From Candidatus Woesearchaeota archaeon (lineage in GTDB: Archaea > Nanobdellota > Nanobdellia > Woesearchaeales > UBA10216), in the NCBI GenBank assembly GCA_016192915.1, contig JACPTF010000013.1, forward strand, positions 1-64,000: DNA of 64,000 nt. Reading direction: 5' to 3'. This document shows, one piece after another, positions 15,505 through 62,664 of the stretch. Position numbers and translations under genes: made by a program. The first letter of the stretch is position 1, and each line of letters opens with the position of its first letter. Below the pieces are notes generated by a model. The model was given only the letters and a program-made list of their open reading frames with translations. It searched no databases and was not told the origin of the DNA.

Positions 15505-15601
15505 CCCAAATCGTGTACGACACGATTGGGCCCATTCGCAAATCCTGCCTAGCAGGATTGCGCAATCGGCTACTGCCGATTTGCGCCAAAGGCGAATTGG
15601 G
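15505..15601. repeat. Two-part palindromic cluster element
   Basis: Part one is CCCAAATCGTG-tacga-CACGATTGGG. Part two is CCCATTCGC...GCGAATTGGG enclosing AATCCTGC/GCAGGATT and AATCGGC-tact-GCCGATT hairpins. The same two-part layout occurs at 24736-24879 and 38395-38442, and partly at 61026 and 62699. It lies just downstream of tRNA-Lys. Confidence 0.8.
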
Positions 15602-15608
15602 GGTTGAA

Positions 15609-15734
15609 TGGGCCGGACGGGAAATTCACTGCCGTTTCCCCCAGGGCTTTTTTCCCAAAGGAAAAAAGGGCTGGTTTGAACCCGCGACCATCGGATTAAA
15701 AGTCCGTTGCGCTACCAGGCTGCGCTACCGGCCC
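15609..15734 (-). tRNA. tRNA-Lys(TTT) with a T-loop intron
   Basis: Acceptor GGGCCGG pairs with CCGGCCC; the D arm is GCGC/GCGC and the anticodon loop CTTTTAA. The T arm is GCGGG-TTCAAA / T-CCCGT and is interrupted by a 52-nt intron at 15623-15674 (between positions 59 and 60). The junction can form a bulge-helix-bulge: TTCA pairs with TGAA, with three-base bulges AAC and TTT. The anticodon stem has an A27:A43 mismatch. The intron holds an 8-bp TTTTTTCC/GGAAAAAA hairpin and a GGGGGAAACGG segment like the Asp and Tyr introns. Confidence 0.88.
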
Positions 15735-15760
15735 ATACCTGGACCATACATGAACTGAAG

Positions 15761-15893
15761 CGCCCTGGCCGGGACTTTCCCAACCGTTTTCCGCCAGCGC
15801 TTTTTACGAGCTAGGCGAGTAAAAAGGGCTGATTTGAACCCGGGTCGCAGCCGTGACAGGGCTGTATTCTAGGCCAGGCTGAACCACCAGGGC
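15761..15893 (-). tRNA. tRNA-Asp(GTC) with a T-loop intron
   Basis: Acceptor GCCCTGG/CCAGGGC with G73; anticodon arm CAGCC-CTGTCAC-GGCTG. The T stem CCGGG/CCCGG is closed only after removing a 58-nt intron at 15775-15832, again between TTCAAA and T60. Predicted bulge-helix-bulge: inner helix CAGCC/GGTTG, a central helix of TTC with GAA plus one mismatch, and bulges AAT and AGT. The core AAAAAGCGCTGGCGGAAAA is nearly identical to that of the tRNA-Tyr intron. Confidence 0.9.
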
Positions 15894-16212
15894 AATAAGG
15901 GCATTCGCTGCTGCTCACGCCCTTATCAACCCTCGCATTACCAAGGGAAGCGTGAATTTTTGCGAATCTTGTGAGGCTTTTAATACCGTCGGGTAATTTG
16001 GCTAATATTGGCTTCTGCAGTGCAAAACGGCGATAGCTCTACCTGTTGGAAACAACATTAAGTAGAGAAAAGTGTCTTGCCCCGGCCATTCCAGAGTCAA
16101 AAACAGCCACTTGTTTATAAAGTTAACTGTCCTCGAACTGGCACGGCATTCGGCACCTAGTAAACCGATACTTTAAATACCGGAAGTTGAAAATCTGCGA
16201 AGTGACGCAAAA
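15894..16212. other. Intergenic stretch, mostly without assignable features
   Basis: 319 nt between tRNA-Asp and a small ribbon-helix-helix gene. I see a TATA-like actttaaatacc near 16170 that fits the gene at 16213, and a ttttaatac motif near 15975 of unclear use. I found no tRNA, convincing ORF or palindromic cluster in the remainder. Confidence 0.4.
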
Positions 16213-16368
16213 ATGGGCAAGATGACCATAAGAATAAGTGATGAGCTTGAGAAAAAAGTCCGTGCGAAAGCAAAAGAAAGGTTTGGAGAAGGCGATGATA
16301 AGCTTAGCAAAGCATTTGAGGAAGCATTCAACGAATACATTGAAACCGTTCTGAAAGAGAAAAAGTAA
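16213..16368 (+). CDS. Small ribbon-helix-helix DNA-binding protein
   Basis: 51 residues: MGKMTIRISDELEKKVRAKA followed by an amphipathic helix and a charged tail. The beta-strand TIRIS followed by DELEKKV is the classic ribbon-helix-helix (CopG/Arc-like) pattern of antitoxins and small repressors. No toxin follows directly, but a complete toxin-antitoxin pair begins 100 nt downstream. A TATA box sits at about 16170-16180. Confidence 0.7.
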   Translation: MGKMTIRISDELEKKVRAKAKERFGEGDDKLSKAFEEAFNEYIETVLKEKK

Positions 16369-16466
16369 AATATCCCCGCACCCGGACTTTCTGCCGTTAA
16401 CGAAAGCTTTAAATACTTTCGTATCTATTTGCTTCAAAACGATACGATTTTTGAGCTGATGGGCAA

Positions 16467-16781
16467 ATGACAGCAACTGTAACAACAAGGGTGGCTGAGG
16501 AAGTGCTGAGGCAGATTGACGAGTTTTCAGCAGACAGGAACATGGACAGGGCTACAATGCTGCGCAACCTGATTGAACGAGGCTTGGAAGAAGAGAGAAG
16601 GAGAAAAGTGCTTCTGTTATATAAGAATAGAAGGATCAGCATGCAAAAGGCTGCCTCAATGCTTAGAATTGATTTGCTGGAAATGATTGACCTAATGCAA
16701 AAAGAAGGGCTTTATCTTGATTACACTGAAAAAGAGCTGAGAGAGGACTTAAAGGGCTTGCCAGATGAGAATAGTAAGTAA
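16467..16781 (+). CDS. Antitoxin, ribbon-helix-helix plus UPF0175-like domain
   Basis: 104 residues. The N-terminal VTTRVAEEVLRQIDEF resembles a ribbon-helix-helix DNA-binding unit. The C-terminal half (KAASMLRIDLLEMIDLMQKEG) resembles the helix-turn-helix-like UPF0175 antitoxin domain. It overlaps the following PIN-domain gene by 17 nt, which is typical of toxin-antitoxin operons. It probably neutralises the toxin and represses the shared promoter. Confidence 0.75.
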   Translation: MTATVTTRVAEEVLRQIDEFSADRNMDRATMLRNLIERGLEEERRRKVLLLYKNRRISMQKAASMLRIDLLEMIDLMQKEGLYLDYTEKELREDLKGLPDENSK

Positions 16782-17265
16782 CACATCACCCCTTGTTTTT
16801 CTCGCGAAACTGGGCAAACTGGAATTCTTAGACAAGCATGAGTTACTTGTACCACAGCAGGTTGTTGAGGAACTGCACATTTGGGAAAAAAGCGGCAAGG
16901 GGGCATACGTTAGGCTCATGGGATGGTTTGCGAATGCTAATGTTGCCGTGAAAAAAACTTACATCTTGCCAAAACTCCCAAAAATCCTTCATGAGGGAGA
17001 AAAAGCTGCGATTTCTCTGGCCATAAATGAAAAGGTAAAAACCGTTCTTATGGACGAAAGAAGAGCTAGGATTGCTGCAGAAGCGCTAGGTTTGAAGGCA
17101 ATTGGAACGATGGCCGTCATCAAACAGCAGCTTAAGGAAAAGAGAATCACAGTGAAAGAATGCAGGCAAACGGTATTTGAACTTATAAAGAATGGTTACA
17201 GGATAAAGGAAGAGCTTCTTGCAGAGTTTTTGTTGAACATTGAAAAGCCGGAAGATAAAAAATAG
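16765..17265 (+). CDS. PIN-domain toxin (DUF3368-like)
   Basis: 166 residues starting MRIVSNTSPLVFLAKLGKL. This SNTSPL motif and the later LMDERRARIAAEALG acidic block are typical of DUF3368, a PIN-fold family of putative ribonucleases paired with UPF0175-type antitoxins. Acidic metal-binding residues are seen at E in HEGEKAAI and D/E in MDERRAR. The classic first Asp of PIN nucleases is replaced by Asn in SNTS, as is usual in this subfamily. It overlaps the antitoxin gene upstream; tRNA-Tyr lies on the opposite strand immediately after. Confidence 0.8.
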   Translation: MRIVSNTSPLVFLAKLGKLEFLDKHELLVPQQVVEELHIWEKSGKGAYVRLMGWFANANVAVKKTYILPKLPKILHEGEKAAISLAINEKVKTVLMDERRARIAAEALGLKAIGTMAVIKQQLKEKRITVKECRQTVFELIKNGYRIKEELLAEFLLNIEKPEDKK

Positions 17266-17267
17266 AA

Positions 17268-17459
17268 TCCCCGCACCCGGACTTCCAAGCCGTAGTTTTT
17301 CCGCCAGCGCTTTTGTGAACAATGGCGAACAAAAGGGCTGTTTGAACCGGGAATCCCTCGGGCACGGCTGGCTGCCACTCATTCTGTCTCTCGTGGAGAA
17401 AGTTGTGGCAGTGATTTTCATCTACAGCCGAGTGCTCTGCCAGGTTGAGCTATGCGGGG
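17268..17459 (-). tRNA. tRNA-Tyr(GTA) with two introns
   Basis: Acceptor CCCCGCA/TGCGGGG. The anticodon stem CTCGG/CCGAG holds CTGTAG, followed by a 59-nt intron at 17363-17421 (around the canonical 37/38 site), which contains a CTGCCAC/GTGGCAG stem. A second 59-nt intron at 17282-17340 splits the T-loop between TTCAAA and T60. For the second a clean bulge-helix-bulge can be drawn: AGCC/GGCT, bulge AAC, TTCA/TGGA, bulge AGT. I could not draw a perfect motif for the anticodon intron. A TATA-like tttataagc lies about 30 nt upstream. Confidence 0.88.
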
Positions 17460-17494
17460 ATAAGATTCAGAAGTTTGAAAGTTGCTTATAAAGG

Positions 17495-19063
17495 TTACGG
17501 CTTTATCGTTACCGTGTTGGAATGGGTGACGAACTTGACGTTCTTCTCTGTGAAGAAGCGGAGCGAGCCTTTCGGAAGGACAAACGTGCCGAGGATGCTC
17601 AGCCTTAAGCGGATTTTGTAAGCCAGGATGCGCTCTTCATGCGCGTCAATGCTTTCAAGCTCCCACTTGACGACAGAGCCGCGGCCGTCATTGAAAATCG
17701 TGGCGGGCTTGAGCGTGCCCATGGAATCGTGCTCAACCTCTGCAATCATAGGAACCCTGTCCATGGCAGTAAGCTTTACGTAAGGCTGCGCGGACCTGTT
17801 TTTCAGGCGCAGTATAACCTTAAGCTCAGAAACCCCTCCCTCCTTGTAACTGATCGCGCTTGCCTCCTTGATAAGCTGCACAGGGCTCTGGAAGAACCTG
17901 TACAGCAGCACAAAAACAATGACAATTATAATGAGATAAAATATGGAACGGTAGCTCTCAACCACCTTAATTGTGGCAGTCTCCTGCTGGCCAAGGGATA
18001 GCTCCCAGGCGTTAAAGCGCTTTCCTTCCTTGCTGATGGAAAAAGACTTGGGATTGCCTTTTGTAAATAGGAACTTAAGCCAGCTCGTTTCTGACTCAAC
18101 CACCTTAGTGTTCCTGACGTTGCCGTCGTTTACGTAAGTTGTCTCGTTAACCCACTTAAAAAAAGACCCTTTCCTTTCAGACTTAACAGGCTTTATCTCA
18201 GAATAGCTTATAACCTCAAACTTCTCAAAAATTGTGGGCTCCAGGGGCTTGTTGTCAACAAAAAGAACAACCTTCAAAGTATCCTTAGCTGGCGGGGTTA
18301 ACGGGTCAAGCTTGACCTTGGCAGAGACAGACTTGCTCTCCAGGGGCCTAAGGCCGGTTAATATCTCCTGCCTTATCAAATCAGATGAAACGCTTGAAAG
18401 GACAACCTTGAGCTGCGAGATGTTCTTGGGGTTGCGGTTAATCAGGTTAACCTTAATCTCAAATTCTTTCCTTGGGTCAACCTGCGAAGGGATTTCAACA
18501 ATCCTGCTAACAGCAGCAAGGTACTCCAATATGAGCTGATTATTGGAACGGATGTTCACAAAGGGAGTAATGGACTGTGACTTCCCGCCTTTCACCGACT
18601 CGATTCCAATGTTAACTGCCCGAAACCCGGGCGGGAAAGCAACAGTCGGCTTCAAAAGAAGCCTCACATTCTCAGAGCCTAAACCGGGGATGTCAACTCC
18701 TGAAAAGTAATGGTACAAGGGATCTGACTGGACACTCCACTCAATATCCGGAGCTGAAATCCTGAACTTTTCAGGGTAATTGCTCAGGCTCTTTATAGTC
18801 AAGTCAAAAGCAGCCTGCCCGTCAAGAAAAATGGAATCATTAACAGCTGTTATTGACACTGTGAAATCAGGAGCGCCATCATCCTGCGCCCGGGCAGAAG
18901 CAGCAAAAACAAGCAGCATGGAAAACGCCAGAAAAGCTGCGAACAAAGTACAATTCCGCTTGCTGCGGAATGTGCTATCGACCTCGGGTCGATACGCATC
19001 GGCTGCCGCCGATGCTGAATCGGACATCGTCCGATTTGTACTTTTTTGAGACGGCTTAAGCAT
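17495..19063 (-). CDS. Secreted/membrane-anchored Ig-like repeat protein
   Basis: About 522 residues from the ATG at 19063 (an upstream in-frame start at 19105 is possible). A hydrophobic signal segment occurs near residues 40-60, then a long beta-rich extracellular region resembling NEW3/CARDB-type adhesion modules, a membrane segment near residue 370-390 (YLIIIVIVFVLLYRFF) and a further beta domain of about 130 residues. Between the start and the signal segment about 30 residues (TMSDSASAAADAYRPEVDST and flanks) are encoded by a palindromic cluster element, so the N-terminus looks extended by insertion. The function is unknown; a surface or transport accessory role is likely. Confidence 0.65.
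   Translation of the reverse strand: MLKPSQKSTNRTMSDSASAAADAYRPEVDSTFRSKRNCTLFAAFLAFSMLLVFAASARAQDDGAPDFTVSITAVNDSIFLDGQAAFDLTIKSLSNYPEKFRISAPDIEWSVQSDPLYHYFSGVDIPGLGSENVRLLLKPTVAFPPGFRAVNIGIESVKGGKSQSITPFVNIRSNNQLILEYLAAVSRIVEIPSQVDPRKEFEIKVNLINRNPKNISQLKVVLSSVSSDLIRQEILTGLRPLESKSVSAKVKLDPLTPPAKDTLKVVLFVDNKPLEPTIFEKFEVISYSEIKPVKSERKGSFFKWVNETTYVNDGNVRNTKVVESETSWLKFLFTKGNPKSFSISKEGKRFNAWELSLGQQETATIKVVESYRSIFYLIIIVIVFVLLYRFFQSPVQLIKEASAISYKEGGVSELKVILRLKNRSAQPYVKLTAMDRVPMIAEVEHDSMGTLKPATIFNDGRGSVVKWELESIDAHEERILAYKIRLRLSILGTFVLPKGSLRFFTEKNVKFVTHSNTVTIKP
18945..19044. repeat. Cloverleaf-like palindromic cluster in a gene's N-terminus
   Basis: The outer stem AAAGTACAA/TTGTACTTT encloses four hairpins in tandem: ATTCCGC/GCGGAAT, TATCGACC/GGGTCGATA, GCATCGGC/GCCGATGC and AATCGGAC/GTCCGATT. 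All stems are perfect and all differ in sequence, which suggests that pairing is maintained. The element is read through in frame by the membrane-protein gene at 17495-19063. Confidence 0.85.
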
Positions 19064-19192
19064 TTCAAACACTACTCCAAAACAGCTGGACCAAAACAGT
19101 TCCAAAACGGCTTTACTTATTTAAATAGTTTGTGATGTGACGCAGAAATTACAGCCAGATTGCCTGCGGCAGCAGAAATGATGAAGAAGAAA

Positions 19193-19264
19193 TGGGGCCG
19201 CGAGGATTTGAACCCCGCTTATGCCCACCCCAAGGGCATGTCATGCCAAATAGACCACGGCCCC
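19193..19264 (-). tRNA. tRNA-Pro(GGG), no intron
   Basis: 72 nt. Acceptor GGGGCCG/CGGCCCC with A73, anticodon arm TGCCC-TTGGGGT-GGGCA, T arm CGGGG-TTCAAAT-CCTCG. All arms close without an intron, in contrast to the other tRNA-Pro gene at 60880. Confidence 0.92.
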
Positions 19265-19469
19265 GTATTGCAAAAGAACAACTGACTCGTTTAAAAGGAT
19301 TATGGAAATTTTTGGAAGTTTTTGAATTACGCCGGTATTGAAAGATTTACGAGAAAAAGCCAAATAAGTGAAGAATTAACGGAAGAACCGCAAACTTTAC
19401 GGAGATGCCCGGAATTTTTACGTAAAACCGCAGGAAAGGCTTATTAAGCTGTAAATTCAGAAATGAGTC

Positions 19470-19682
19470 ATGATTGAAAAATCGGATTTGGCTTACATAT
19501 TTACAGGAATTGCTGCATTTGCAGCCGTATTCTCGGCGAATAACGTAGCCGTCCAGCTAATTGGCAGCATGTTCATTGCCTTGGTAATAATGCTATACGT
19601 TAGTGGCGACCAAAATAGAAAAATTAATAAGCGCATAGATGAATTAGAGAGGAGATTCGAAGATGAAACTCGCAAAAGATGA
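19470..19682 (+). CDS. Small membrane protein with coiled-coil tail
   Basis: 70 residues. Two hydrophobic segments (about residues 8-26 and 29-44) are followed by a charged helix QNRKINKRIDELERRFEDET. It overlaps the next small gene by 20 nt, so the two are probably co-translated. The family is not recognised. Confidence 0.6.
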   Translation: MIEKSDLAYIFTGIAAFAAVFSANNVAVQLIGSMFIALVIMLYVSGDQNRKINKRIDELERRFEDETRKR

Positions 19683-19785
19683 AAAGAAGAAAGGGAAGGC
19701 ACGCGACCCTTATCTTATTGTGTTGGTGGTTATGATAATAATCCTTATTTACTTCTACCTCAAGTCAAAAGGAATTGTGCCTTGA
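19663..19785 (+). CDS. 40-residue single-span membrane peptide
   Basis: MKLAKDEKKKGKARDPYLIV followed by a hydrophobic segment and a short polar end. It overlaps the upstream gene by 20 nt and stops 5 nt before the convergent rad50 stop codon. The highly basic N-terminus suggests an in/out topology with the N-terminus inside. It is probably a real small protein given the overlap and composition, but no family is recognised. Confidence 0.5.
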   Translation: MKLAKDEKKKGKARDPYLIVLVVMIIILIYFYLKSKGIVP

Positions 19786-19790
19786 AAATA

Positions 19791-24735: not shown

Positions 24736-24879
24736 CCCAAGTCGCAAATCGGGTTGCGCCCGATTGCTCATTCCGCCGTCCGCGGAATTGCGCTGTTGCG
24801 ACTGGGCCCAATCGGCCGCTGCAAATCCTGCTTTGGCAGGATTGCACAGTCGGCTACTGCCGACTTGTGCCGATTTGGG
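24736..24879. repeat. Large two-part palindromic cluster at the end of the DUF1385 gene
   Basis: 144 bp. On the minus strand part one is CCCAAATCGGC...GCCGATTGGG enclosing AGTCGGC/GCCGACT and AATCCTGC/GCAGGATT hairpins. Part two is CCCAGTCGC...GCGACTTGGG enclosing ATTCCGC/GCGGAAT and AATCGGG/CCCGATT. The outer arms match those at 38395-38442. The DUF1385 reading frame runs into it and takes its last about 37 residues from it. Confidence 0.85.
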
Positions 24880-25760
24880 TTTCTCAGAACAGCCTTAAGA
24901 GCTGCAACAGCCACAGCAATCTGGCCAGCATCAGGCTCCTTGGTAGTTATGCGCTGAAGCAGCAAGCCAGGAAACACCAGCAGCCTCATGAAGATGTTTT
25001 TCTCAAATTTTGCGCCCAAACGAAGCAGCTCATACGAAACACCAGCTATAACTGGAAAAAGCACTATCCTTGACAGCAGCTTCGGAATAAATCCTTCCGG
25101 ATTAACAAGCGAGAAAACGAAAATGCTCACAATTACTACGATAAGAAGGAAGCTAGTCCCGCAGCGGGGATGCATAGCGGGATATTTCCTAATCTTCTGC
25201 GGCAGAAGCTGCTCACTGTGCTCATAAGCGTGAATGGTCATGTGCTCCGCTCCATGGTACTGGAAAAGGCGCTGCACATCCTTAAAGAACGAAATGAAGA
25301 CCAGATAGCTGAGAAAAGCAAGCAGGCGAAGCACGCCATCAACAACATTGAACCAAAAGGGGTTATTTTTCACAAAAAAATTAGCCAGGAACAGCGGAGC
25401 AGCCACAAAGAGAGCAATGGCAAGAACAATCGCCACAGCAAAAGAAATAAACATCTCCTTGCCACCAAGGACGTCCTTGCCCTTTTCATCCTTGCCACCA
25501 GCAACGTTCGCAGAGAAAGCAAGGGCCTTAAAGCCGATAACGAGCGTTTCATAGAGAACGCCAACGCCCCGCACCAGCGGCCACCTGAAAGGCTTCACTC
25601 TTTCCGAAAGAGGCTTAATCACCCACTTCTGCGTTATTATCCTGCCTGATTCTGCCCTCACGGCAACCGCAGTCCTTTCCTTGCTGCGCATCAGGACGCC
25701 CTCAATAATGGCCTGGCCGCCAACAAGAAGCAACTGATTTTTAGTGTCCGGAACTTTCAT
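24768..25760 (-). CDS. DUF1385-family membrane protein
   Basis: About 330 residues from the ATG at 25760 (MKVPDTKNQLLLVGGQAI), which has a TATA box (tatttatataac) about 30 nt upstream. Family hallmarks are GGQAIIEGVLMR at the N-terminus, HGAEHMTIHAYE, and a CGTSFLL motif in the second half, with four to five membrane segments. The His/Glu-rich motif suggests a metal site; the function is unknown. The homologous part ends near VAALKAVLRNPN; the remaining about 35 residues are encoded by a palindromic cluster element and are probably not functional. Confidence 0.85.
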   Translation of the reverse strand: MKVPDTKNQLLLVGGQAIIEGVLMRSKERTAVAVRAESGRIITQKWVIKPLSERVKPFRWPLVRGVGVLYETLVIGFKALAFSANVAGGKDEKGKDVLGGKEMFISFAVAIVLAIALFVAAPLFLANFFVKNNPFWFNVVDGVLRLLAFLSYLVFISFFKDVQRLFQYHGAEHMTIHAYEHSEQLLPQKIRKYPAMHPRCGTSFLLIVVIVSIFVFSLVNPEGFIPKLLSRIVLFPVIAGVSYELLRLGAKFEKNIFMRLLVFPGLLLQRITTKEPDAGQIAVAVAALKAVLRNPNRHKSAVADCAILPKQDLQRPIGPSRNSAIPRTAE

Positions 25761-25840
25761 AAAAGCAAAAGCCACGGCTTCAGTTATATAAATATTGGGG
25801 AAAATTATTTAAAATTGCGGCAAATGGCTTAATCCGCAAG

Positions 25841-30687: not shown

Positions 30688-31311
30688 ATGAGCAACCTGA
30701 AGAAGTGGGTACTGGCAGTGGCAATAGCGATAGTCCTAAACCTATTTGTCAACTATGGAATAAGCGTCTTCTACAAAGCACCCCAATATGACGACTTCTG
30801 CAAGGACAGCATGAGGCCCTACCCCTACAAGATCTACCCGGCCGAGCCAGCAGCGCAGCAGCCAAAAGAGTGCGCAACAATAGAGGTAAGCGAGGAGCTC
30901 CAGAAGAGCTGCGGTGAGCAGAAAGGCTACATTAGCTACAAATACAACACTACAGGCTGCCCGACAGAAGCACACTGCGAGCTGTGCGGCAAGATGTTCG
31001 AGGACATTAACCAGAAACGCAACTCCAACGTCTTCGTAATACTGGTTGTTTTTGGCGTGGTTGCCATAGTTGCCGGATTTGTGCTCAAGGCAGAAGCCGT
31101 TGCCAACGGATTCCTCTTCGGCGGAATACTAAGCCTTGTTATTGCAGCAATAAGAAACTGGGGACAGCTCCAGGACATATTCAAATTCATAATTCTCGGG
31201 GCGGTGCTGGCGCTGCTGATATGGATAGGCTACAAGAAAGGAAGCGCGCTTATCCCACAGCACAACCTTTTTCCTAAAAAGGTTGATCAAAAAACGAAAA
31301 AGAAAAAATAA
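30688..31311 (+). CDS. Membrane protein with Cys-rich extracytoplasmic loop
   Basis: 207 residues. A hydrophobic N-terminal segment (about 6-24), then a loop of about 90 residues with six to seven cysteines (CATIEV, CGEQ, GCPTEAHCELCG), then three membrane segments and a basic tail. The ATG is preceded by a purine-rich aggggcagaaag. The final about 20 residues (QHNLFPKKVDQKTKKKK) come from a hairpin-tail repeat at 31264-31299, so the natural C-terminus probably ended near SALIP. Function unknown. Confidence 0.6.
   Translation: MSNLKKWVLAVAIAIVLNLFVNYGISVFYKAPQYDDFCKDSMRPYPYKIYPAEPAAQQPKECATIEVSEELQKSCGEQKGYISYKYNTTGCPTEAHCELCGKMFEDINQKRNSNVFVILVVFGVVAIVAGFVLKAEAVANGFLFGGILSLVIAAIRNWGQLQDIFKFIILGAVLALLIWIGYKKGSALIPQHNLFPKKVDQKTKKKK
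31264..31299 (+). repeat. Hairpin-tail repeat forming a C-terminal extension
   Basis: AACCTTTTT-ccta-AAAAAGGTT (9-bp perfect stem) followed by GATCAAAAAACGAAAA. It is nearly identical to the copy at 42279. It is read in frame as NLFPKKVDQKTK at the end of the membrane protein gene. Confidence 0.75.
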
Positions 31312-31473: not shown

Positions 31474-32325
31474 TCAGGCCGTAACTTCTTCCAAAATAAC
31501 GACTTTGCTATTTTTCACGCCAGCTTTGAATTTCTCTTCTGCAGAGCTGTAGTTGCTGCCCAGCAGCATGCGGTAGTGCATTGGAACAGTTATATCAGCG
31601 GCTATCGTGTTGGCTGCTGCAATGGCCTCGTCAACATCCATCGTATAAGTTCCTCCAATTGGAAGCAGGGCAACGCTGATTTTGCCAAGCTGCTTCATCT
31701 CAGGAATAAAGTCCGTATCGCCAGCATGGTAAACTGTCTGGTTGTTAAGCTGAAATACATAGCCAACCCAGCTGTTGCTTTTCGGATGGTACTGCAAGCG
31801 GCCAGGCTTGACGTTGTACGCTGGAACAGTCCTGAACTTGAAGCCATTAACGTCGTACTCTTTGTTAGGCACAGCATCGATAAATTCAGCGTTGACTTTT
31901 AATTTTTCCTTGCAGCCGCCAGGAACAACGATGACAGTTGTTGGCTTCAGAATCTTTTTGACGGCTGAAGGGTCGCAATGGTCGTAATGGGCATGAGTGA
32001 TGAAAACTATATCAGCCTTTTCGTAGCTGCCGCCCTTGAACTCGAACGGGTCAACGTAGTAGATTTTGTTGCCACTATTCCTATCAGTAAACATAAAACT
32101 GGCATGCCCAAACCACTTCACTGAGCTTAAAACTTCTGGCACCTCAGGCATAATACCACCCCCTGATTCTTCTCCGCTTCCGGCAACATAATCTTCGATA
32201 ACGTACTGCACTGGTTGTTCTGGTTTTTCTGGTTGCCCTTGTTGTTTCTCTGCTGATGAACACCCTGCGATGAATAGCAAAACTACCAAAACCGCTGCAA
32301 GCAGCGGCAGCACTACCAGCTTCAT
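31474..32325 (-). CDS. Metallo-beta-lactamase-fold hydrolase, lipoprotein
   Basis: 283 residues. An N-terminal signal with lipobox-like LLFIAGCSS suggests lipid anchoring outside the membrane, followed by a Gln/Glu/Pro-rich linker. The catalytic domain shows WFGHASFMF, the THAHYDHCDPSAV metal motif, HAGDTDFIPEM and PMHYR, the pattern of the UlaG-like/YtkL branch of metallo-beta-lactamase hydrolases. The substrate is unknown. It converges with the small zinc-ribbon gene at 31316, leaving only 5 nt between stops. Confidence 0.85.
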   Translation of the reverse strand: MKLVVLPLLAAVLVVLLFIAGCSSAEKQQGQPEKPEQPVQYVIEDYVAGSGEESGGGIMPEVPEVLSSVKWFGHASFMFTDRNSGNKIYYVDPFEFKGGSYEKADIVFITHAHYDHCDPSAVKKILKPTTVIVVPGGCKEKLKVNAEFIDAVPNKEYDVNGFKFRTVPAYNVKPGRLQYHPKSNSWVGYVFQLNNQTVYHAGDTDFIPEMKQLGKISVALLPIGGTYTMDVDEAIAAANTIAADITVPMHYRMLLGSNYSSAEEKFKAGVKNSKVVILEEVTA

Positions 32326-37960: not shown

Positions 37961-38719
37961 ATGAAAATTTTAAACGCAGCTGCGGCAATCACAATTATTA
38001 CAATATTTATACTCGTAGCCGCTGTCGTTGTTGCAAGCCCTGAGAAAACCGACAAGTTCGGCTGCCACAAGTGCATGAAGGACTGCGAAAAATACAGCCT
38101 TGTAAAAAACGAGTATCACTGCCACGGCTCAGTCAGCGTGCAAAGCCAAAACATACAAATAGCGCCAAGGATTTACGGCAACACGACATACAGGAGGGTA
38201 GCGCGGATAATAGACGGCGACACACTGACTGCCTATTTCAACGGAAACCAGCAGGTCATCAGGCTTTTGGGCATTAACGCACCGGAAACAAGCCCGAAAG
38301 AAAAGGCGGAATGCTACAGCTCTCAGGCAACCGAGCAGCTGAAAAAGCTAGTAGCCACTAAATTCGTTCTACTGGAAAAGGACAAGCTCCAGAACCCAAA
38401 TCGTGCAGGCACGATTGGGCCCAGTCGCAGCAGCGACTTGGGTGATGATAAAGACAAGTACGGAAGGCTGCTAAGGTATGTCACAGTCATAGGCACGAAC
38501 GTTTCTGTAAACGAGGAACTGGTAAATGGCGGCTTTGCAAAAGCCTACCCTTCACTCACAACAAAAGTGGAAGAGTACAAGAAGCTTGAGAACGCGGCCA
38601 AGGAGAAAAAGCTCGGGATGTGGGGAGAATGCTTCAAGGAAAAGAAGAACGAAACGCTGACAAGGCTTTTCCCGCTTAAGGGGAAAAGGATAGACAAATA
38701 CGGGGAGCACCAGGGATAA
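37961..38719 (+). CDS. Secreted staphylococcal-nuclease-like protein
   Basis: 252 residues with a signal or anchor segment (about 6-26), a Cys/His-rich stretch (CHKCMKDCEKY), then the thermonuclease fold: ARIIDGDTL, IRLLGINAPE (catalytic Arg/Glu) and DKYGRLLRYV (second catalytic Arg), ending LGMWGECF. A 16-codon block NPNRAGTIGPSRSSDLG sits just before DKYGR and is exactly a palindromic element, which other SNases lack; it occupies a surface-loop position. gaggtaa precedes the ATG. Probably a nuclease for external DNA or RNA. Confidence 0.85.
   Translation: MKILNAAAAITIITIFILVAAVVVASPEKTDKFGCHKCMKDCEKYSLVKNEYHCHGSVSVQSQNIQIAPRIYGNTTYRRVARIIDGDTLTAYFNGNQQVIRLLGINAPETSPKEKAECYSSQATEQLKKLVATKFVLLEKDKLQNPNRAGTIGPSRSSDLGDDKDKYGRLLRYVTVIGTNVSVNEELVNGGFAKAYPSLTTKVEEYKKLENAAKEKKLGMWGECFKEKKNETLTRLFPLKGKRIDKYGEHQG
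38395..38442. repeat. 48-bp palindromic element inserted in frame in the nuclease gene
   Basis: CCCAAATCGTGC-ag-GCACGATTGGG followed directly by CCCAGTCGC-agca-GCGACTTGGG. This is the minimal two-part form of the clusters at 15505 and 24736. The length is a multiple of three and the frame is kept. Confidence 0.9.
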
Positions 38720-42253: not shown

Positions 42254-42314
42254 TCCCTGAAAACTGCACGTTCTGCGCAACCTTTTTAATAAAAAGGTTG
42301 ATCAAAAAGAGCTA
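42250..42314 (+). repeat. Hairpin-tail repeat with duplicated gene start
   Basis: An ATG at 42250 begins 28 nt that encode MIPENCTFC, interrupted by AACCTTTTT-aata-AAAAAGGTT and GATCAAAAAG (42279-42310). The mini-ORF ends in a TAA that overlaps the real ATG at 42315 (TAATG), where MIPENCTFC is encoded again with six synonymous changes. The first copy sits in the ATGA overlap with the upstream gene, so it is the original start. Confidence 0.75.
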
Positions 42315-44063: not shown

Positions 44064-44098
44064 GCAGGAAAGGGCGAAAAGCAGCTTTTAATAGTTTG

Positions 44099-44208
44099 TC
44101 AAAAACCACCGGTCAGAGACCGGTGGCATTTTTTGACGCTCAGAATTCCACGAACCGGTGGTTTTTGAGCACACAGAACCCCACTGATCATAGATGAGTG
44201 GAATTCTG
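44099..44208. repeat. Compound inverted-repeat element (copy 2)
   Basis: TCAAAAACCACCGGT (44099-44113) pairs perfectly with 44154-44168, and also locally through CCACCGGTC-aga-GACCGGTGG (44106-44126), so two structures compete. CAGAATTCCAC (44141-44151) pairs perfectly with 44198-44208. The spacer GAGCAC-N2-AGAACC is shared with copy 1 at 3411-3534. It lies between divergent genes. Confidence 0.7.
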
Positions 44209-56156: not shown

Positions 56157-56173
56157 GTGAAATCATGCTCTCC

Positions 56174-56590: not shown

Positions 56591-56724
56591 AAATGCACAC
56601 CTCTGAAACTAAAAATAATTCAATTGACTGAAAAAGCAGGTCTGATTTGTATATAAAGTTATCGCAACACCATTTAGCGAATGATAAACAAGTATACACA
56701 GATTAAACATAAATAAAGCTTCTA

Positions 56725-57189
56725 TTAATTGCTCAATTTTTTTCTTATAGCTTCATACATATACTCTATATTTCTCCAGTCTTCCACGCTTATACCGCCT
56801 CCAACATGTTGAATTGATCTCTGATATTTAAATAACATAACTCTTAATTCAGTCAGATTTAACCTATCCAATTGCGACGGATTCTCAAAAGGCGATTCCG
56901 AAAATTTTTTATTTATATTGTCATACTTGGCGTCGCTTATGTTAGCTTCCCCTAATATACTCCAAGCAAACTTAGTAAACTCCTCAAAATCTCTTGATTT
57001 TGGTATGTGCTTAGTTTGTAATTTGTCATCGGGTATCTGCAAATATTTCATATCACCAAATCTCTCTTCAGTTATGCCTTCTTCAATTATCGGTATATCT
57101 TGAGTTTGTTGTATAACTCTTTCTGTACATCCATTGACTAAGATGATAAAAATAACTAAAAACACCATCCATACAAATTTAAACTTCAT
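56725..57189 (-). CDS. Small AT-rich lipoprotein of unknown function
   Basis: 154 residues. The signal segment ends in LVNGCTERV, a lipobox-like Cys. The rest is helical and charged. The gene and its flanks are visibly AT-richer than the neighbours and use A/T-ending codons, which suggests recent transfer. gaggtg precedes the ATG. No domain is recognised. Confidence 0.55.
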   Translation of the reverse strand: MKFKFVWMVFLVIFIILVNGCTERVIQQTQDIPIIEEGITEERFGDMKYLQIPDDKLQTKHIPKSRDFEEFTKFAWSILGEANISDAKYDNINKKFSESPFENPSQLDRLNLTELRVMLFKYQRSIQHVGGGISVEDWRNIEYMYEAIRKKLSN

Positions 57190-57408
57190 TTTACACCTCA
57201 GAATTAATTGTATATATAGAATTCTATAAAAACATTACCATTAGGGCTAAGAAAGATAAACGCTGAGGCTTGGATTTTCAAATAGATATCAATTGCCAAA
57301 AACTGGACAAAAGTCCCTGAAAGGAGTAAAAAAGAGGCAATAGGGAATGAGAAAAAAAGGCCAATCAAAAAACTAACTCAGTTCATATATAAATTTTATT
57401 CTTTCAAG

Positions 57409-58149
57409 CTATTGAAAGGAAAAAAGACGCAGCCAGTTAGGACGCTGGCGAACATTACGCAATTGCCTGCGGCTGCTGCGAAGAAACAAATTCAGTTTCT
57501 GCTCAATTGTGCTGCTACCTTCAAAATCAAGCTCTAATCTGCGAAATTCGCTGCTGTGGTGCTGGACACGGCCATTGCTGCTGCTGAACTTCAGCTTCTT
57601 GTGAAGCAGCTCGTGATACATGAGATAGTCAAGAAGCTGCTGCGGAGCATCACGGAAAAGGCTGCTTACGGTTATCGTGTTGGTGTGATAGTCGTAGCTT
57701 GCAAGCTTCCTGAATGAGCCGAGGCCCCATCTCAGGTTTGGCTTGTCAGCAATGCCAAAAAAATATTTCTCATTCACCCTAGCGAAGGATGACTCAAGAC
57801 TTTCATCACTACTGCCACTGCCATTGTTAACAGCTGCAACTTCTGAGATTCCTTTAATAAAATCGTCATAAAGCTGCATGTTCAACGACGATATTTTTCC
57901 ACTATTATCCTTTGCGGCTGCCAAACGCTCACTGCGCAAAATCTTGACAAGAAGATGCTGGATAAGGCCTATGACGATCTCTTCGCTGGTGCTTTTCCAG
58001 CTTCTGCTGAGATTAAAATAAAGAGCACCGCCCGCCTTTCTCACAGTTGCGTTGTACTGCTTGAACTTGCCGGAATAACGCAGGTGCGCAGCATAAGTAA
58101 AAGCTGCTTCGGGAAACAGCCGCGAGAATGCTTCATCAACAAGGCTCAT
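57409..58149 (-). CDS. SprT-like zinc metalloprotease domain protein
   Basis: About 246 residues from MSLVDEAFSRLF, chosen from a TATA (tttttatacgcc) at leaderless distance. The zinc motif YHELLHKKLKF, with the later HHSSEFRRLE, resembles SprT/YgjP-type minigluzincins. The preceding RWGLGSFRKLASYDYHTNTI strand is typical of that fold. The proposed role is protease, perhaps DNA-protein crosslink repair. It ends in a Gln/Arg-rich tail and is adjacent to aRF1. Confidence 0.7.
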   Translation of the reverse strand: MSLVDEAFSRLFPEAAFTYAAHLRYSGKFKQYNATVRKAGGALYFNLSRSWKSTSEEIVIGLIQHLLVKILRSERLAAAKDNSGKISSLNMQLYDDFIKGISEVAAVNNGSGSSDESLESSFARVNEKYFFGIADKPNLRWGLGSFRKLASYDYHTNTITVSSLFRDAPQQLLDYLMYHELLHKKLKFSSSNGRVQHHSSEFRRLELDFEGSSTIEQKLNLFLRSSRRQLRNVRQRPNWLRLFSFQ

Positions 58150-58196
58150 GGGGTTGCAACAGGAATAAGGCGTATAAAAAATTTGCTGCAACGTAA

Positions 58197-59300
58197 CTAT
58201 GTTTCGGTATTAACCTCATACCTCAGAATTGCGGCAATACCGCCAAAGTCCTTAAGCTGGGCGCCTTCCCTGGTCTCAATTGAAATTATAGCAACATTAG
58301 TGCCCATCTTCTTTGCTTCCTGCTCAAAAGACTCAATCTTATCATCAGGCAGGCTCTCCGAAAGCAGCAGGATGTCAACAGCGCCGTTACTGATTGCGCC
58401 AAGCACATGCTGCTCGCCGTAAGTGACCATGCCCGGCTTTGTCACCAAGAAGCCAAAGAAGCGGTTCACAATCTTCTTCTCCTCAGCGAGCTCCTCAGCA
58501 GCAAGGACATCCTGGCTCTTGTCAACCAGGTCATGAACGCCAAACTCATCGGTGTAGGTAATGTCCTTCACCGCAATAATCCTCTTCTTGAGCTCGTTGG
58601 TAATGTAGCCGCCCTCTATAAGCTCGTGCTTCGTAGGGCCGGGGCCGCCAACAATAATCCCCTTCAGGTTGGGGTTGCTGAAAAAAGCCTCCTTCATGTA
58701 CTCCCCAACCCTCACGTAAAACTCCTTGGCAGCGTTCTCGCGGATGCGGCCAAAGCGGGCAGCCGATTGTCCTCCCGCACGGTATTTTCCAGGAACATTC
58801 GACGTGTGCGTCCCCAGGATTGTAATGCTCTTGCCCCTCAGCTCGCCAATCGTGCACTCACGCCTGTCTACAGCAACAAGGCCGTAAGTTTCCTTAGCCT
58901 CAAGCATGCCCTGAAGGATGCCAAGCTCAAAGTCCTTGTCGCAGCGGTAAATTCTTGTTTGGACGGGAATAGGCGGTTCTATTGACCAGACGCGAAAATC
59001 CTGCTGGCCCTCAGCAGCAATGTTGCCCGAAAAAACAGCAAGGCCGTGCTCAGGAGTCCTGCTATACAGCCGCAAGTGCTGGACCATGCGCTCAAGGGCT
59101 CCGGTAACGTTCTTCCTCGTGGAAGCAGACTTTATGTTCATGGCGGTTCCCTGCTCCTGCTGGATATGCTGTATAATCTTGACTATGTCATAGCCCTGCG
59201 GGATGTAAACAGAGACAAGCTCAGTATGCCTGCCCTTATAGGCCTCAAGCTCCTTGATGAACTTCTTCAGGTCATGCTTCTGCTTTTCTGTCAGGGACAT
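58197..59300 (-). CDS. prf1: Peptide chain release factor aRF1
   Basis: 367 residues, shorter than the usual about 410. Stop-codon recognition: TAMNIKSASTRKNV (NIKS present, with Met replacing Ser of TASNIKS). The catalytic GGQ lies in RAGGQSAARFGRIRE. The C-terminal domain that binds ABCE1 is present but trimmed. It releases peptides at all three stop codons. Confidence 0.95.
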   Translation of the reverse strand: MSLTEKQKHDLKKFIKELEAYKGRHTELVSVYIPQGYDIVKIIQHIQQEQGTAMNIKSASTRKNVTGALERMVQHLRLYSRTPEHGLAVFSGNIAAEGQQDFRVWSIEPPIPVQTRIYRCDKDFELGILQGMLEAKETYGLVAVDRRECTIGELRGKSITILGTHTSNVPGKYRAGGQSAARFGRIRENAAKEFYVRVGEYMKEAFFSNPNLKGIIVGGPGPTKHELIEGGYITNELKKRIIAVKDITYTDEFGVHDLVDKSQDVLAAEELAEEKKIVNRFFGFLVTKPGMVTYGEQHVLGAISNGAVDILLLSESLPDDKIESFEQEAKKMGTNVAIISIETREGAQLKDFGGIAAILRYEVNTET

Positions 59301-59523
59301 TTTTCATGCGCTCGTTTTGCTGCTGCAGTAATTGCGAGAATTATTTTTTGCAGCTGCCGCAGCACGGTTAGGCTATTCGGAAAGGGCTGAAGCTACAAAA
59401 GAAGGGCTTACATTTCCTGCTTCAGCTGCTGATTCCATAGCCAACAGGATAGGAAAAGAGACTATTTAAATATTTGTGTAAAATTTCACATCTATAAAGT
59501 AGTAAAAAACGAAAGATTTATAA

Positions 59524-60822
59524 ATGGCGAATTTGCCCATAGCACTTATGGCAAACGGCGGTTACAGGGAATTCAAGCTAGACAACGGCCTTATTGTGGC
59601 GTTGCAGGAAACACCAACGCAGACAATCTACGGTGGCTTGCGCGTCAATCATGGCGCCCTTCATGAGCATCCTGGGGAAGAGGGTTTTGCACATTTTCTT
59701 GAACACGCGCTGATAACTGGAGGGACTGAACGATATACTCCGGATGAGATTTCTGAATTGAGGGGCAGGTTTGGACAGAATAATGCGTTCACTTTCCTTA
59801 ACATGACAACTTTTCCATCTGACTTGCTGGCAACAGACGTAGAAGACTACCTCGCCATGTTGCCTGAGATTGTATTCAGGCCGAGATTTGAACCTGGGAA
59901 AGTTGATGAAGAGCGGCAGAGGGTGTTAAGAGAAATTGGGGATGAAAAGAGCAGTAAGGCATTTCAGGTTGAACGGCAATATTCCCTAGCTCTGCTTGGA
60001 GAAGGTCCGCATAATTATTATGTAAAAGGAAAAGAAGAGAGCATCCAGACCGCAACTCCGGAAACTTTACGAGCATTCCATTCACGCGGCTACCACCCCA
60101 ATAACTCAAGCCTGATACTGGTCGGTGGCATCCCAAAAAACATTGACGCGATAGTACAGCAGCATTTTGGAAAAATCCCAACAGGAGGAGGGTCACGATA
60201 TGTCTTTCCACAAGCACCTCCCTTGGAACAATTAGCAGCATTTCACATTCCAGCATCAGAGCTTATGAACGAAGAGAAACCAGAAGAAAGCAGCGCTGAG
60301 CTTCGAATCGGAATACGAGGCCCCCCGCTTACACATGAAGACAGTTACGTTGTCGCTATGCTGGCGTGGATTTTGGGAGGCGGTGGAGGTTCTCGGTTGT
60401 TCAAAAGAGTAAGCCAGCAGGAAGGGTTGGCATACTCAATCCAATGCTCATATGGCGGCACAGAGTACGGAGGTGTTCTGGAAATAAGAGGCAGAATTCT
60501 CGCAAGAGGTTCTCAAAATGCTGTTGATGGTATTTTTGAAGAGATACAACGGTTGCGGACAGAACAGATTGATCAGGAAGAGTTTAATAAGCTTAAAAGA
60601 GTATCAATGTATTGGATTGCTAAGGCGGAGGAGACAAATGAGGGACACGCAGTCGCAATACAAAAAAAGCTGGATTACGGTATAACTCCAGAAATGCACT
60701 TGGCAAGGGCAAATGCAGTAACGCCAAGGAACATTCAAGAAGCAGCACACAAATATCTACCCGCTGACAAAAACGGAAAGTTTGTGTTTCTGCTCCGTGA
60801 CCCCTTTAAAAAGCTCGAATAG
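59524..60822 (+). CDS. M16-family zinc metallopeptidase
   Basis: 432 residues. The inverted zinc motif is HFLEHALITGG (HxxEH) near residue 59, with a downstream Glu in the EDYLAMLPEIVFRP region. The second M16 domain has the GGGGGSRLFKRVSQQEGLAYSI glycine-rich segment (written here in part). It resembles processing-peptidase-like archaeal and bacterial M16 members. A second ATG at 59551 (MANGGYREF) is a plausible alternative start, since a TATA-like gatttataaa lies only a few bases before the first ATG. Confidence 0.88.
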   Translation: MANLPIALMANGGYREFKLDNGLIVALQETPTQTIYGGLRVNHGALHEHPGEEGFAHFLEHALITGGTERYTPDEISELRGRFGQNNAFTFLNMTTFPSDLLATDVEDYLAMLPEIVFRPRFEPGKVDEERQRVLREIGDEKSSKAFQVERQYSLALLGEGPHNYYVKGKEESIQTATPETLRAFHSRGYHPNNSSLILVGGIPKNIDAIVQQHFGKIPTGGGSRYVFPQAPPLEQLAAFHIPASELMNEEKPEESSAELRIGIRGPPLTHEDSYVVAMLAWILGGGGGSRLFKRVSQQEGLAYSIQCSYGGTEYGGVLEIRGRILARGSQNAVDGIFEEIQRLRTEQIDQEEFNKLKRVSMYWIAKAEETNEGHAVAIQKKLDYGITPEMHLARANAVTPRNIQEAAHKYLPADKNGKFVFLLRDPFKKLE

Positions 60823-60879
60823 TTGCAAGCGCCCAGCATCAATACATTTAAAAAACACAGCGAAAGACCTGAAGGGCAA

Positions 60880-61003
60880 GGGGCCATGGGGCAGCTTGGT
60901 CTAACCTATCTGGTTTGGGACCAGATGACCCCGGTTCAAAACCCTTTTGCGAAAAGGGTTTATCCAAAACCGACGCAAAGGGATGAAAGTCCGGGTGGCC
61001 CCA
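60880..61003 (+). tRNA. tRNA-Pro(TGG) with a T-loop intron
   Basis: Acceptor GGGGCCA/TGGCCCC with A73, anticodon arm TCTGG-TTTGGGA-CCAGA. The T stem CCCGG/CCGGG closes only after removing a 49-nt intron at 60941-60989, between TTCAAA and T60. A bulge-helix-bulge can be drawn: CCCTTT(t)GCG/CGCAAAGGG, bulge AAA, TTCA/TGAA, bulge AGT. The intron also forms a competing CCCTTTT-gcga-AAAGGG hairpin followed by TTTATCCAAAACCG, similar to the hairpin-tail repeat. Confidence 0.92.
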
Positions 61004-61025
61004 CTAAACCTTTTTACCGCTGCGG

Positions 61026-61082
61026 CGGCAAAAACACAAGTCGAGATACGCTCGACTGTGCCCAGGCGACAGCGGTCGCCTT
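61026..61082. repeat. Two-hairpin palindromic element
   Basis: CAAGTCGAG-atacg-CTCGACTG followed by CCCAGGCGAC-agcg-GTCGCCTTGGG. It has the two-part layout of the clusters at 15505 and 38395. It lies between tRNA-Pro and rpl37ae. Confidence 0.75.
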
Positions 61083-61180
61083 GGGGCTTTACCAAAAAAC
61101 GGCACTCAAAAGCTTGACCAAAAAACCATAATCCCAATAGATTTATAAACCGCCCCTTAATCCAAAACTACTAAGATAAA

Positions 61181-61534
61181 ATGCCAGAAGAAACAAAGTT
61201 ATACGGCTCAGTGAAGAGGTACGGCGTAAGGTACGGAACCAAGCTGAAGGGCAAGATAGCGAAGATAGAGGCAGAAAGGCACCTGTCAACAAAGTGCCCG
61301 TACTGCCACTACAACAAAGCCAAAAGGCTAGCTGCAGGGATATGGAGCTGCGGCAAGTGCAAAAGCAAGTTCACAGGCAAGGCCTATACTCCAGGAGGGC
61401 ATGTTGCCATAAAGGAAGCAGTTGAAACAGCTGCGCAGCCGGTAGCAGAAACAGCGCAAGAAACTGCTGGGACAGATGACTTCGGCGAAGAAGACGCTGA
61501 AGAGGAAGAAGAAGGGCAGGAAGAGGAAAATTAA
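61181..61534 (+). CDS. rpl37ae: Ribosomal protein L37Ae (eL43)
   Basis: 117 residues. The zinc finger has CPYCHYNKAKRLAAGIWSCG and CKSKF. The N-terminal SVKRYGVRYG is typical. The last about 35 residues form an acidic tail of Glu/Asp not usual for the family. TATA (gatttataaac) lies about 30 nt upstream. It is first in an operon with rpoP, pcc1, pfdB and UPF0147. Confidence 0.94.
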   Translation: MPEETKLYGSVKRYGVRYGTKLKGKIAKIEAERHLSTKCPYCHYNKAKRLAAGIWSCGKCKSKFTGKAYTPGGHVAIKEAVETAAQPVAETAQETAGTDDFGEEDAEEEEEGQEEEN

Positions 61535-61536
61535 AA

Positions 61537-61674
61537 ATGGTCGAGTACAAATGCTTTGATTGCGGCAAGAAGGTATCAACAGAATACCTCAGGAAGAAGG
61601 TAAGGTGCCCGTACTGCGGCAGCAAAATTCTCTACAAGCCAAGAAGGATTTCAACCAAGATAAAAGCGCGATAA
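61537..61674 (+). CDS. rpoP: RNA polymerase subunit P (Rpb12-like)
   Basis: 45 residues: MVEYKCFDCGKKVSTEYLRK then VRCPYCGSKILYKPRR. The two CxxC pairs form the zinc ribbon of RpoP. It starts 2 nt after rpl37ae stops, the usual archaeal linkage. Confidence 0.94.
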   Translation: MVEYKCFDCGKKVSTEYLRKKVRCPYCGSKILYKPRRISTKIKAR

Positions 61675-61693
61675 AAATCCGCACATCAGCCAC

Positions 61694-61924
61694 ATGAAAT
61701 ACTCCGCAGTCATAAACGTAAGCGGCGATGCAGCGCTGATAAAAAAGGTCTTCGCTGCAGAAGACACAACAATAAAAGAAAAAGCAAGCTACAAGATAAA
61801 GAAAACCACAGAGGGGGTCACGTTCGCCATTGAAGCAGAAGACAGCGTGGGATTAAGGACTGCACTGAACTCAATAACAAAGGTCCTCACAGTCATAGAG
61901 AAGGTCAAGAGGATTAGTGATTAA
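61694..61924 (+). CDS. pcc1: KEOPS complex subunit Pcc1
   Basis: 76 residues, the usual archaeal size. Begins MKYSAVINVSGDAALIKKVF; the later GLRTALNSITKVLTVIEKV helix is the dimerisation part. KEOPS makes t6A37 on tRNAs decoding ANN codons. TrmO at 50.6 kb may act further on the same base. Confidence 0.88.
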   Translation: MKYSAVINVSGDAALIKKVFAAEDTTIKEKASYKIKKTTEGVTFAIEAEDSVGLRTALNSITKVLTVIEKVKRISD

Positions 61925-61925
61925 A

Positions 61926-62261
61926 ATGCCTGAAATACCTGAACAAACGCAAGAGAAGATAAGGCAGCTCCAGATGCTTGAACAGGCGCTACAGCAACTC
62001 CTCATGCAAAAGCAGGCGTTCCAGCTCCAGCTCATGGAGACAGACTCTGCCCTGAAAGAGCTTGAGGGAACACAGGAGGCATACAAGATAGTTGGCAACA
62101 TTATGATCCTAACCAGGAAAGAAGAGCTTGAGAAAGACCTCAAGGAAAAGAAGGAAACCATGGAGCTCAGGATAAGCTCCCTTGAAAAGCAGGAAACAAA
62201 GACAAGGGAAAAGGCGGCATCGCTCCAAAAAGACGTAATAGAATCAATGAACAAACACTAA
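61926..62261 (+). CDS. pfdB: Prefoldin subunit beta
   Basis: 111 residues. Two long coiled-coil helices flank the central hairpin region (ELEGTQEAYKIVGNIMILTR), characteristic of beta-prefoldin. It captures unfolded proteins with the alpha subunit and delivers them to the thermosome. Starts 2 nt after pcc1. Confidence 0.92.
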   Translation: MPEIPEQTQEKIRQLQMLEQALQQLLMQKQAFQLQLMETDSALKELEGTQEAYKIVGNIMILTRKEELEKDLKEKKETMELRISSLEKQETKTREKAASLQKDVIESMNKH

Positions 62262-62262
62262 A

Positions 62263-62523
62263 ATGTTCCCCGGAAGCAAAACCCAGACTGTTGAAGGAAT
62301 CATAGTAGCCATATCCGAGCTTCAGGACGACAATACTGTCCCAAAGAACGTGAAGGAAAGAGTGCACGCCGTAATTGAAACACTCAAAGACGAAAAGCTA
62401 GAGGTTTCAATAAGGATTAACAAGGCACTCCAGATTCTCGACAGCCTGTCAGAGGACTCAAACCTCCAGTCTTACACCAGAACCCAGCTGTGGAACGTAG
62501 TCAGCATGCTGGAGAAGATTTAA
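62263..62523 (+). CDS. UPF0147 family protein
   Basis: 86 residues. VPKNVKERVHAVIETLKDEK followed by SIRINKALQILDSLSEDSN matches UPF0147, a small helical archaeal family regularly beside prefoldin and Pcc1. It is the last gene of the operon. Function unknown. Confidence 0.88.
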   Translation: MFPGSKTQTVEGIIVAISELQDDNTVPKNVKERVHAVIETLKDEKLEVSIRINKALQILDSLSEDSNLQSYTRTQLWNVVSMLEKI

Positions 62524-62561
62524 GATTAACTTGATTTTTCGCTTATTTCTACGGCAACAAA

Positions 62562-62664
62562 TGCAGCACAAGTCGGCAGTAGCCGACTGTGCAAATGTCG
62601 GCAACGGCCGACAATCCTCAGCTCGCCGCTGAGGAATCCTGCCAAAGCAGGATTTGCAGCTGCA
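62562..62664. repeat. Cloverleaf-like palindromic cluster
   Basis: The outer stem TGCAGC/GCTGCA encloses AGTCGGC-agta-GCCGACT, TGTCGGC-aacg-GCCGACA, TCCTCAGC/GCTGAGGA and AATCCTGC-caaa-GCAGGATT. It lies between UPF0147 and the GTPase gene. The AGTCGGC and AATCCTGC modules also occur in the 24736 cluster. Confidence 0.85.

Follow-up and report, generated by a model that had tools for sequence, protein, structure and literature searches.

Why should a stretch of archaeal DNA carry, at eight separate loci, groups of adjoining hairpins that pair perfectly while their arms differ from locus to locus? The stretch, hereafter the window, covers 64,000 nucleotides of a Candidatus Woesearchaeota archaeon (contig JACPTF010000013.1; G000:C8:1-64000 in our numbering). 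The 1.2 Mb source genome, G000, is 92.9% complete and its nearest named relatives are Candidatus Woesearchaeota metagenome-assembled genomes (MAGs). An earlier note, made from the letters of the window, had described these loci as modular hairpin clusters. All eight were present, each had repeat relatives elsewhere in the genus, and the phenomenon proved larger than first described (Table 1). Our results make it likely that dozens of short hairpin pairs per genome have moved to new places in one genus of groundwater Woesearchaeota.

Plain hairpins with perfect stems of 7 bp or more numbered 66 in the window against 24-35 in Markov shuffles. Because this class was only about twice as common as chance predicts, the specific architecture with a bulged A was the proper statistic. 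To count as a module, a hairpin had to have a foot of 4 bp or more, a single bulged A, an inner stem of 5 bp or more and a loop of 3-8. The window contained 12 such modules; shuffles gave 0-1 each, and any other letter in the bulge gave 0-2 per strand. Across five genomes of the genus, A-bulged modules numbered 115, 59, 61, 35 and 39, against 1-12 per other letter and 3-9 in local shuffles (in G000, 115 against 6-12 and 9). This excess of about 5-20 fold contradicts the possibility that such clusters are no commoner than in shuffled sequence. When the bulge position was allowed to vary, the CA[A]NTC core was found in about 280 of 307 modules.

The commonest unit, family A, is a head-to-head hairpin pair of 46-52 bp in which CCCA[A]RTCG-inner-CGAYTGGG is followed, without spacer, by CCCARTCG-inner-CGAY[T]TGGG. 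Next to its foot, each hairpin leaves a single base unpaired (A in hairpin 1, T in hairpin 2); the foot is predominantly CCCA, occasionally CACA or CGCA. Among two-module clusters, 96 of 98 were head-to-head ('+-') and none was '-+', which is the inverted-doublet arrangement of REP/REPIN elements. The two-part frame that had been read in the window, CCCAAATCG..CGATTGGG then CCCANTCG..CGANTTGGG, was confirmed: the half-frame occurred 51 times in its own genome and never in the reversed control. The termini form inverted repeats (CCCAARTCG / CGAYTTGGG), as do those of miniature inverted-repeat transposable elements (MITEs). The consensus ends are CCC/GGG, and the GTAG or CGTC tag of REP/REPIN elements is absent. 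The unit is symmetric, so that nearly every copy gave covariance-model matches on both strands. Family B, the second subfamily, has the foot GCA and a TCCTGC stem, and near-identical copies of it occur across the genus. A third repeat is an outer hairpin, GACCYTTTT..AAAARGGTC. The fourth, family C (GCATCGGC..GCCGATGCTG), has no bulged A; its GCATCGGY..RCCGATGCTG form occurred in 15 copies in its own genome and in none in the reversed control. The loci at 15113 and 18945, which the earlier note had grouped with the others, belong to family C. The bulged base, the outer GACC..GGTC hairpins and the in-frame position of the element at 38395 had been overlooked in the first reading.

Structure was preserved over sequence, as had been proposed. 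The 90 doublets comprise 89 distinct sequences and the scaffold alone is conserved. In 46 representative doublets, 98.0% of cells were paired against 84.5% after shuffling; double-changed cells numbered 113 against 31, and the covariation score was 0.317 against 0.071. Dozens of copies with compensatory changes, the support that had been anticipated, were therefore recovered. When the pattern did not demand pairing, 929 of 940 cells were Watson-Crick, 2 were G-T and 2 were A-C. The near-absence of G-T, together with the symmetry on both strands, favoured a DNA-level structure over an RNA one. It suggests that DNA is the level at which selection or copying operates, since there both strands have to fold, whereas RNA would tolerate G-U. 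The hint of an RNA function in the earlier note was accordingly disfavoured. Structured RNA or untranslated-region (UTR) motifs under site-wise selection, such as protein-binding hairpins or terminators, would also give strong hairpins with compensatory changes, and many copies are indeed intergenic. However, G-T is frequent in REP stems, for which a partial role as RNA is assumed (PMC3733652), the unit is symmetric, sites are often unshared between species and many copies lie inside genes. Furthermore, a search of Rfam at gathering cut-offs returned tRNAs only and no family that matches the elements. We therefore consider an RNA-level origin very unlikely.

When the flanks of elements were compared between sister genomes, 11 sites yielded 12 clean filled/empty comparisons, most of them lacking a target-site duplication, and there were many partial ones besides, so that empty orthologous sites do exist in relatives. 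For example, two doublets near C3:6069-6175 of G000 were both cleanly missing in G004, where the sequence is uninterrupted. Conversely, G004 carries a 48-bp family A doublet, in frame, exactly at the equivalent of 32017/32018, where the window has none. Such precise sites between sister species are the mark of insertions or precise losses and not of conserved UTRs, and most sites were indeed not shared between species. Whole units are gained or precisely lost, and gain is favoured because the distribution is patchy. Family A empty sites showed no consistent target-site duplication of the kind seen in MITEs; nested family B copies were flanked by a 2-bp repeat that is ambiguous as a duplication. 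It could be argued that no transposition is involved and that replication template switching, by making the two arms complementary in a single event, both creates and perfects the palindromes in place. Stems that pair perfectly while their sequence is free would fit this explanation, as would an orthologous site (L113/L107) where the two arms have paired insertions. However, whole 48-51 bp units of fixed scaffold stand at unrelated sites, near-identical compound elements occur at different loci and in different species, and the bulged base is retained though correction would erase it. The clean filled/empty sites weaken the explanation further, and we regard it as most improbable. Template switching may still be the source of stem perfection.

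Seven orthologous filled sites were read. Four were nearly identical, and three had one or both inner stems wholly different on the same scaffold at the same insertion base, with the stems perfectly paired (e.g. G001 L074:2327, G000 L146:11951). Small as the number is, new stems at the same site are better explained by whole-hairpin replacement, or by repeated insertion at that very base, than by compensatory substitution in steps. Stems might instead change stepwise in place under selection on a DNA structure used by the host, for example the site bound by a chromosomal protein, and their spread would then be incidental. A DNA-binding protein would be expected to produce both the covariation and the conserved bulge. 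However, the orthologous sites of this small sample look bimodal, either near-identical or replaced at the same base position, and stepwise change seems to us distinctly unlikely.

The suggestion that the element grows or recombines by modules was upheld. Twenty-three complete hairpin sequences recurred, in almost all cases beside a different partner, and CCCAAGTCGCTGCTGCGACTGGG was found in six doublets with six partners. The half-element at 24807-24879 was 99% identical to G006 C40:5800-5872, where the first (partner) hairpin differs, indicating that halves are exchanged as units. Frames can be empty or filled, as had been noted, and another element occupies hairpin 2 of both the 144-bp cluster at 24736 and the 97-bp cluster at 15505. 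Deleting 47 bp from the sequence of the element at 15505-15601 restores CCCATTCGCCAAAGGCGAATTGGG. Excision of family B-type copies re-created a hairpin of at least 9 bp in 12 of 19 cases, compared with 6 of 400 random positions; the host hairpin was complete again in 12-13 of the 19. The restored host was usually the canonical bulged hairpin (e.g. CCCAGTCGACTGCTGTCGACTTGGG), and in many restored cases the insertion lay at or beside the RTCG/CGAY junction. Similarly, 24 of 89 family A doublets were within a GACC-type outer hairpin, against 32 of 20,000 random positions. Whether the outer hairpin is there at all also varies between species. For this reason, and because it was read within genes such as DnaG and TsaD/Kae1, its interpretation as a plain terminator was rejected.

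Thirty of the 90 doublets were located in open reading frames (ORFs) of at least 120 codons, which differs from the mainly extragenic placement with a shared motif of REP/REPIN elements. Gene calls were ORF-based, and since a few of these copies fall in chance ORFs or close to the start of a gene, a quarter or more in genes is the safe reading. The length was a multiple of three in 25 of the 30 copies within ORFs and in 28 of the 60 elsewhere (Fisher P = 0.0013). Hosts recognised by Pfam included AspRS, a DnaG-like Toprim protein (two doublets), the nuclease at 38395 of the window, a DHH protein, D-aminoacyl-tRNA deacylase, the CCA-adding enzyme, TsaD/Kae1, a PurL-like protein, a glycosyltransferase and an intein in a PilB-like ATPase. 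In the window nuclease, the element-encoded residues (about 145-160) correspond to a gap in the alignment to solved nucleases. The encoded readings PKS..DWAQS..LG, NPNR..LGP..DLG and TQI..TIGPSR..TW represent different frames, and because different frames are used there is no conserved encoded peptide. Elements have entered DNA between genes, the genes themselves (in frame where the copies persist), GACC..GGTC hairpin arms and one another. The copy in the intein (G005 L177:8605-8655, in frame) is a mobile element within a mobile element.

The source genome gave 118 covariance-model matches on both strands, or about 60 doublets, which is a lower bound, as the own-genome model count scored 150 of 364 candidates. 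The half-frame pattern was common in four sister species and scarce in three others; beyond the genus it was nearly absent. Among about 85,000 species genomes, the exact doublet pattern was found in 42 stretches, all from four Woesearchaeota MAGs of the genus, and the viral contigs searched with the exact pair pattern gave no match. When 118 relatives were searched with the covariance model, 11 were positive, all of one family: the eight genomes of the genus and, with weaker forms, members of three other genera, with 41, 6 and 2 matches. In another genus of the family, G010 contains eight identical CCCAAATCGTTTTGCGATTGGG hairpins (L041, L050, L058, L064). The copies read there form a doublet beside TTACAAATAAATTTCGCC.. 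sequence resembling an IS608-type end, and L058 and L050 provide a filled and an empty site (between CCAAAA and ATCCGCC) within a single genome.

How could such units move? The earlier note had seen no transposase in the window, and this holds genome-wide for the families tested (Y1, IS110 and also reverse transcriptase) in a genome that is 92.9% complete. Several points weigh against the view that the elements are mobile. Y1_Tnp was not found in G000, G001, G005 and G006 and was found once in G004, in incomplete genomes (MAG completeness 67-93%). Reverse transcriptases were missing from all five element-rich genomes and IS110 from the genus, and the source genome has only two tyrosine recombinases, one of a type present in nearly every genome of the genus. 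Among Y1, reverse transcriptase, IS110 and tyrosine recombinases, other transposase families not having been searched, no candidate tracked element number; within the first three of these, and with the same limit, no autonomous MITE-type partner with the same ends was found. We saw no transposition intermediate, and the direction, gain or loss, was inferred. A single site was compared with two empty relatives (G005 L174:9145, filled there and empty in both G000 and G006). Finally, the statistics rest on stretches selected for holding elements, and the pattern used to collect pairs fixes part of the scaffold. By eye, the Y1 genes of G004 and G002 had no family A hairpin at their ends. Reverse transcriptases are carried by the element-poor sisters G002, G003 and G007 and not by the element-rich genomes.

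The elements might be REP/REPIN elements proper, that is, hairpin doublets that depend on a RAYT (Y1 tyrosine transposase) for their movement. REPINs are short hairpins whose inverted pairs are the mobile unit, with compensatory changes and a high copy number (PMC3116915), and REP dimers are on record inside target palindromes and inside genes, in frame (PMC3733652). REPINs and BIMEs are alike in these respects to the Woesearchaeota elements, some of which also lie in target palindromes (PMC3116915, PMC3733652). However, the latter have no GTAG/CGTC tag and no conserved inner sequence, and G-T is nearly absent. Their hairpins adjoin without spacer, are frequently nested and are often intragenic, and no RAYT was found (no Y1_Tnp in the source genome or three other element-rich genomes). 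Membership is therefore unlikely. Rickettsia palindromic elements are in-frame palindromic repeats in protein genes with no known transposase (PMC10969869, PMC3733652), and in this they resemble ours. However, they are reported to be about 150 bp long with a conserved encoded peptide, whereas the Woesearchaeota elements are 46-52 bp, use several frames and conserve the hairpin scaffold alone. Since the tag, the RAYT, the extragenic placement with shared motif and the Rickettsia-type peptide were all lacking, we place the elements in neither group.

Other systems offer partial likenesses. The mitochondrial RHE/DHE are also repetitive and hairpin-forming, invade related genomes and are structurally and compositionally divergent (PMC2800124). 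They differ in being organellar and intergenic. We know of no bulged-base scaffold or in-frame gene insertion among them. IS200/IS605 ends and integron attC sites are recognised as folded single-stranded hairpins with extrahelical bases. This is a possible likeness of working and not membership, as the source genome has no Y1 gene and no cassette or attI array was seen. CRISPR arrays, with direct repeats and unique spacers, are unlike adjoining inverted hairpins in scattered copies; no cas search was made. We found no report of such elements for Woesearchaeota or DPANN in the literature, and a general REP survey that covers archaea does not mention Woesearchaeota.

Taken as mobile units, the elements are probably short, non-autonomous palindromes recognised by structure, with the bulged head-to-head hairpin pair as the unit. 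The best reading is that they work like REPINs and Rickettsia palindromic elements, yet we class them apart from both, as a separate type of small palindromic mobile element. An enzyme encoded elsewhere would recognise the folded hairpin and its bulge, not the inner sequence, presumably on single-stranded or cruciform DNA, and would join the unit into exposed A/T-rich or hairpin-forming DNA. Pairing could be maintained if only foldable copies move, or if stems are rewritten whole through exchange between copies, and gene-borne copies would persist only where their length is a multiple of three. More tentatively, and with considerable doubt, the heritable identity may be the fold and not the sequence. 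The bulged scaffold would then spread by structure recognition, each inner stem being rewritten as an entire cassette on insertion or later, and the RTCG/CGAY junction would be both the rewriting point and the nesting site, with growth by self-insertion.

Table 1. Hairpin elements and related features of the window
Feature	Position	Strand	Context
Family C element, two adjoining perfect hairpins (CAGAGGCGGC ttc GCCGCCTCTG; CGCATCGGC tct GCCGATGCTG)	15113..15159		Adjoins RNA polymerase B gene
Family A double hairpin CCCA[A]ATCG.. / CCCATTCG..TTGGG, 97 bp	15505..15601		Hairpin 2 hosts whole family B element
Nested family B double hairpin, foot CGCA	15537..15586		Within hairpin 2 of 15505-15601
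Family C compound, four hairpins (ATTCCGC, TATCGACC, GCATCGGC, AATCGGAC), outer arms AAAGTACA/TGTACTTT	18945..19043		
Family A double hairpin, nested hairpins in both halves, 144 bp	24736..24879		
Nested family B element TGCAAATCCTGC..GCCGACTTGTGC	24820..24870		Inside 24807-24879
Outer-type hairpin AACCTTTTT..AAAAAGGTTGATCAAAAAAC, no insert	31256..31295		Missing at orthologous place in G004
Empty site	32017..32018	-	Within metallo-beta-lactamase-fold-like lipoprotein gene 31474-32325 (-), whose G004 ortholog carries the element
Family A double hairpin, 48 bp	38395..38442		In frame within staphylococcal-nuclease-like gene 37961-38719 (+)
Outer-type hairpin, no insert	42275..42308		
Family A double hairpin, feet CACA / CCCA	61035..61085		
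Four-hairpin cluster; outer parts match family B (AGTCGGC, AATCCTGC hairpins), two more hairpins between	62562..62654		
Outer GACC hairpin GACCTTTTTGCCGAA..AAAGGTC	62683..62750		Hosts 62698-62744 element; read directly
Family A-like double hairpin, foot ACCA	62698..62744		Within GACC..GGTC outer hairpin

Relatives of the element at 15113 were found in G005 (L174), G004 (L236) and G000 (L135/L140/L144), and those of the compound at 18945, 88-92 bp long and of 88-90% identity, at G006 L128:10954-11041 and G000 L131:14374-14462. The frame of a DUF1385 gene (window 24768-25775, minus strand) enters the palindromic cluster there, which provides its C-terminal codons and stop. Other repeats of the window include a structured one of about 120-135 bp (CCACTAGTC.., CCACCCGTCTCTGACGGGTGGTTCTTT; window 3416-3535, L134:6515-6648, L139:15781-15863), unrelated in sequence to the families above. 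A repeated palindrome, TTGTCAAAAACCACCGGTC..GACCGGTGG..TTTTGACGCT, occurs at window 44096-44140 and L185:389-437, with relatives in G004 and G014. The RNA polymerase large-subunit gene (window 6433-9129) has an intein holding a LAGLIDADG domain (Pfam).

How REP-like and Rickettsia-like palindromes spread without a dedicated transposase is an open question, on which the present finding bears. The genus offers clean filled and empty sister sites, Russian-doll nesting and copies in essential genes (AspRS, DnaG, TsaD/Kae1 and the CCA-adding enzyme). If recognition is of the hairpin shape and its bulged base, this would be a structure-directed DNA mobility in archaea and would supply conserved proteins with insertions of 16-17 residues.

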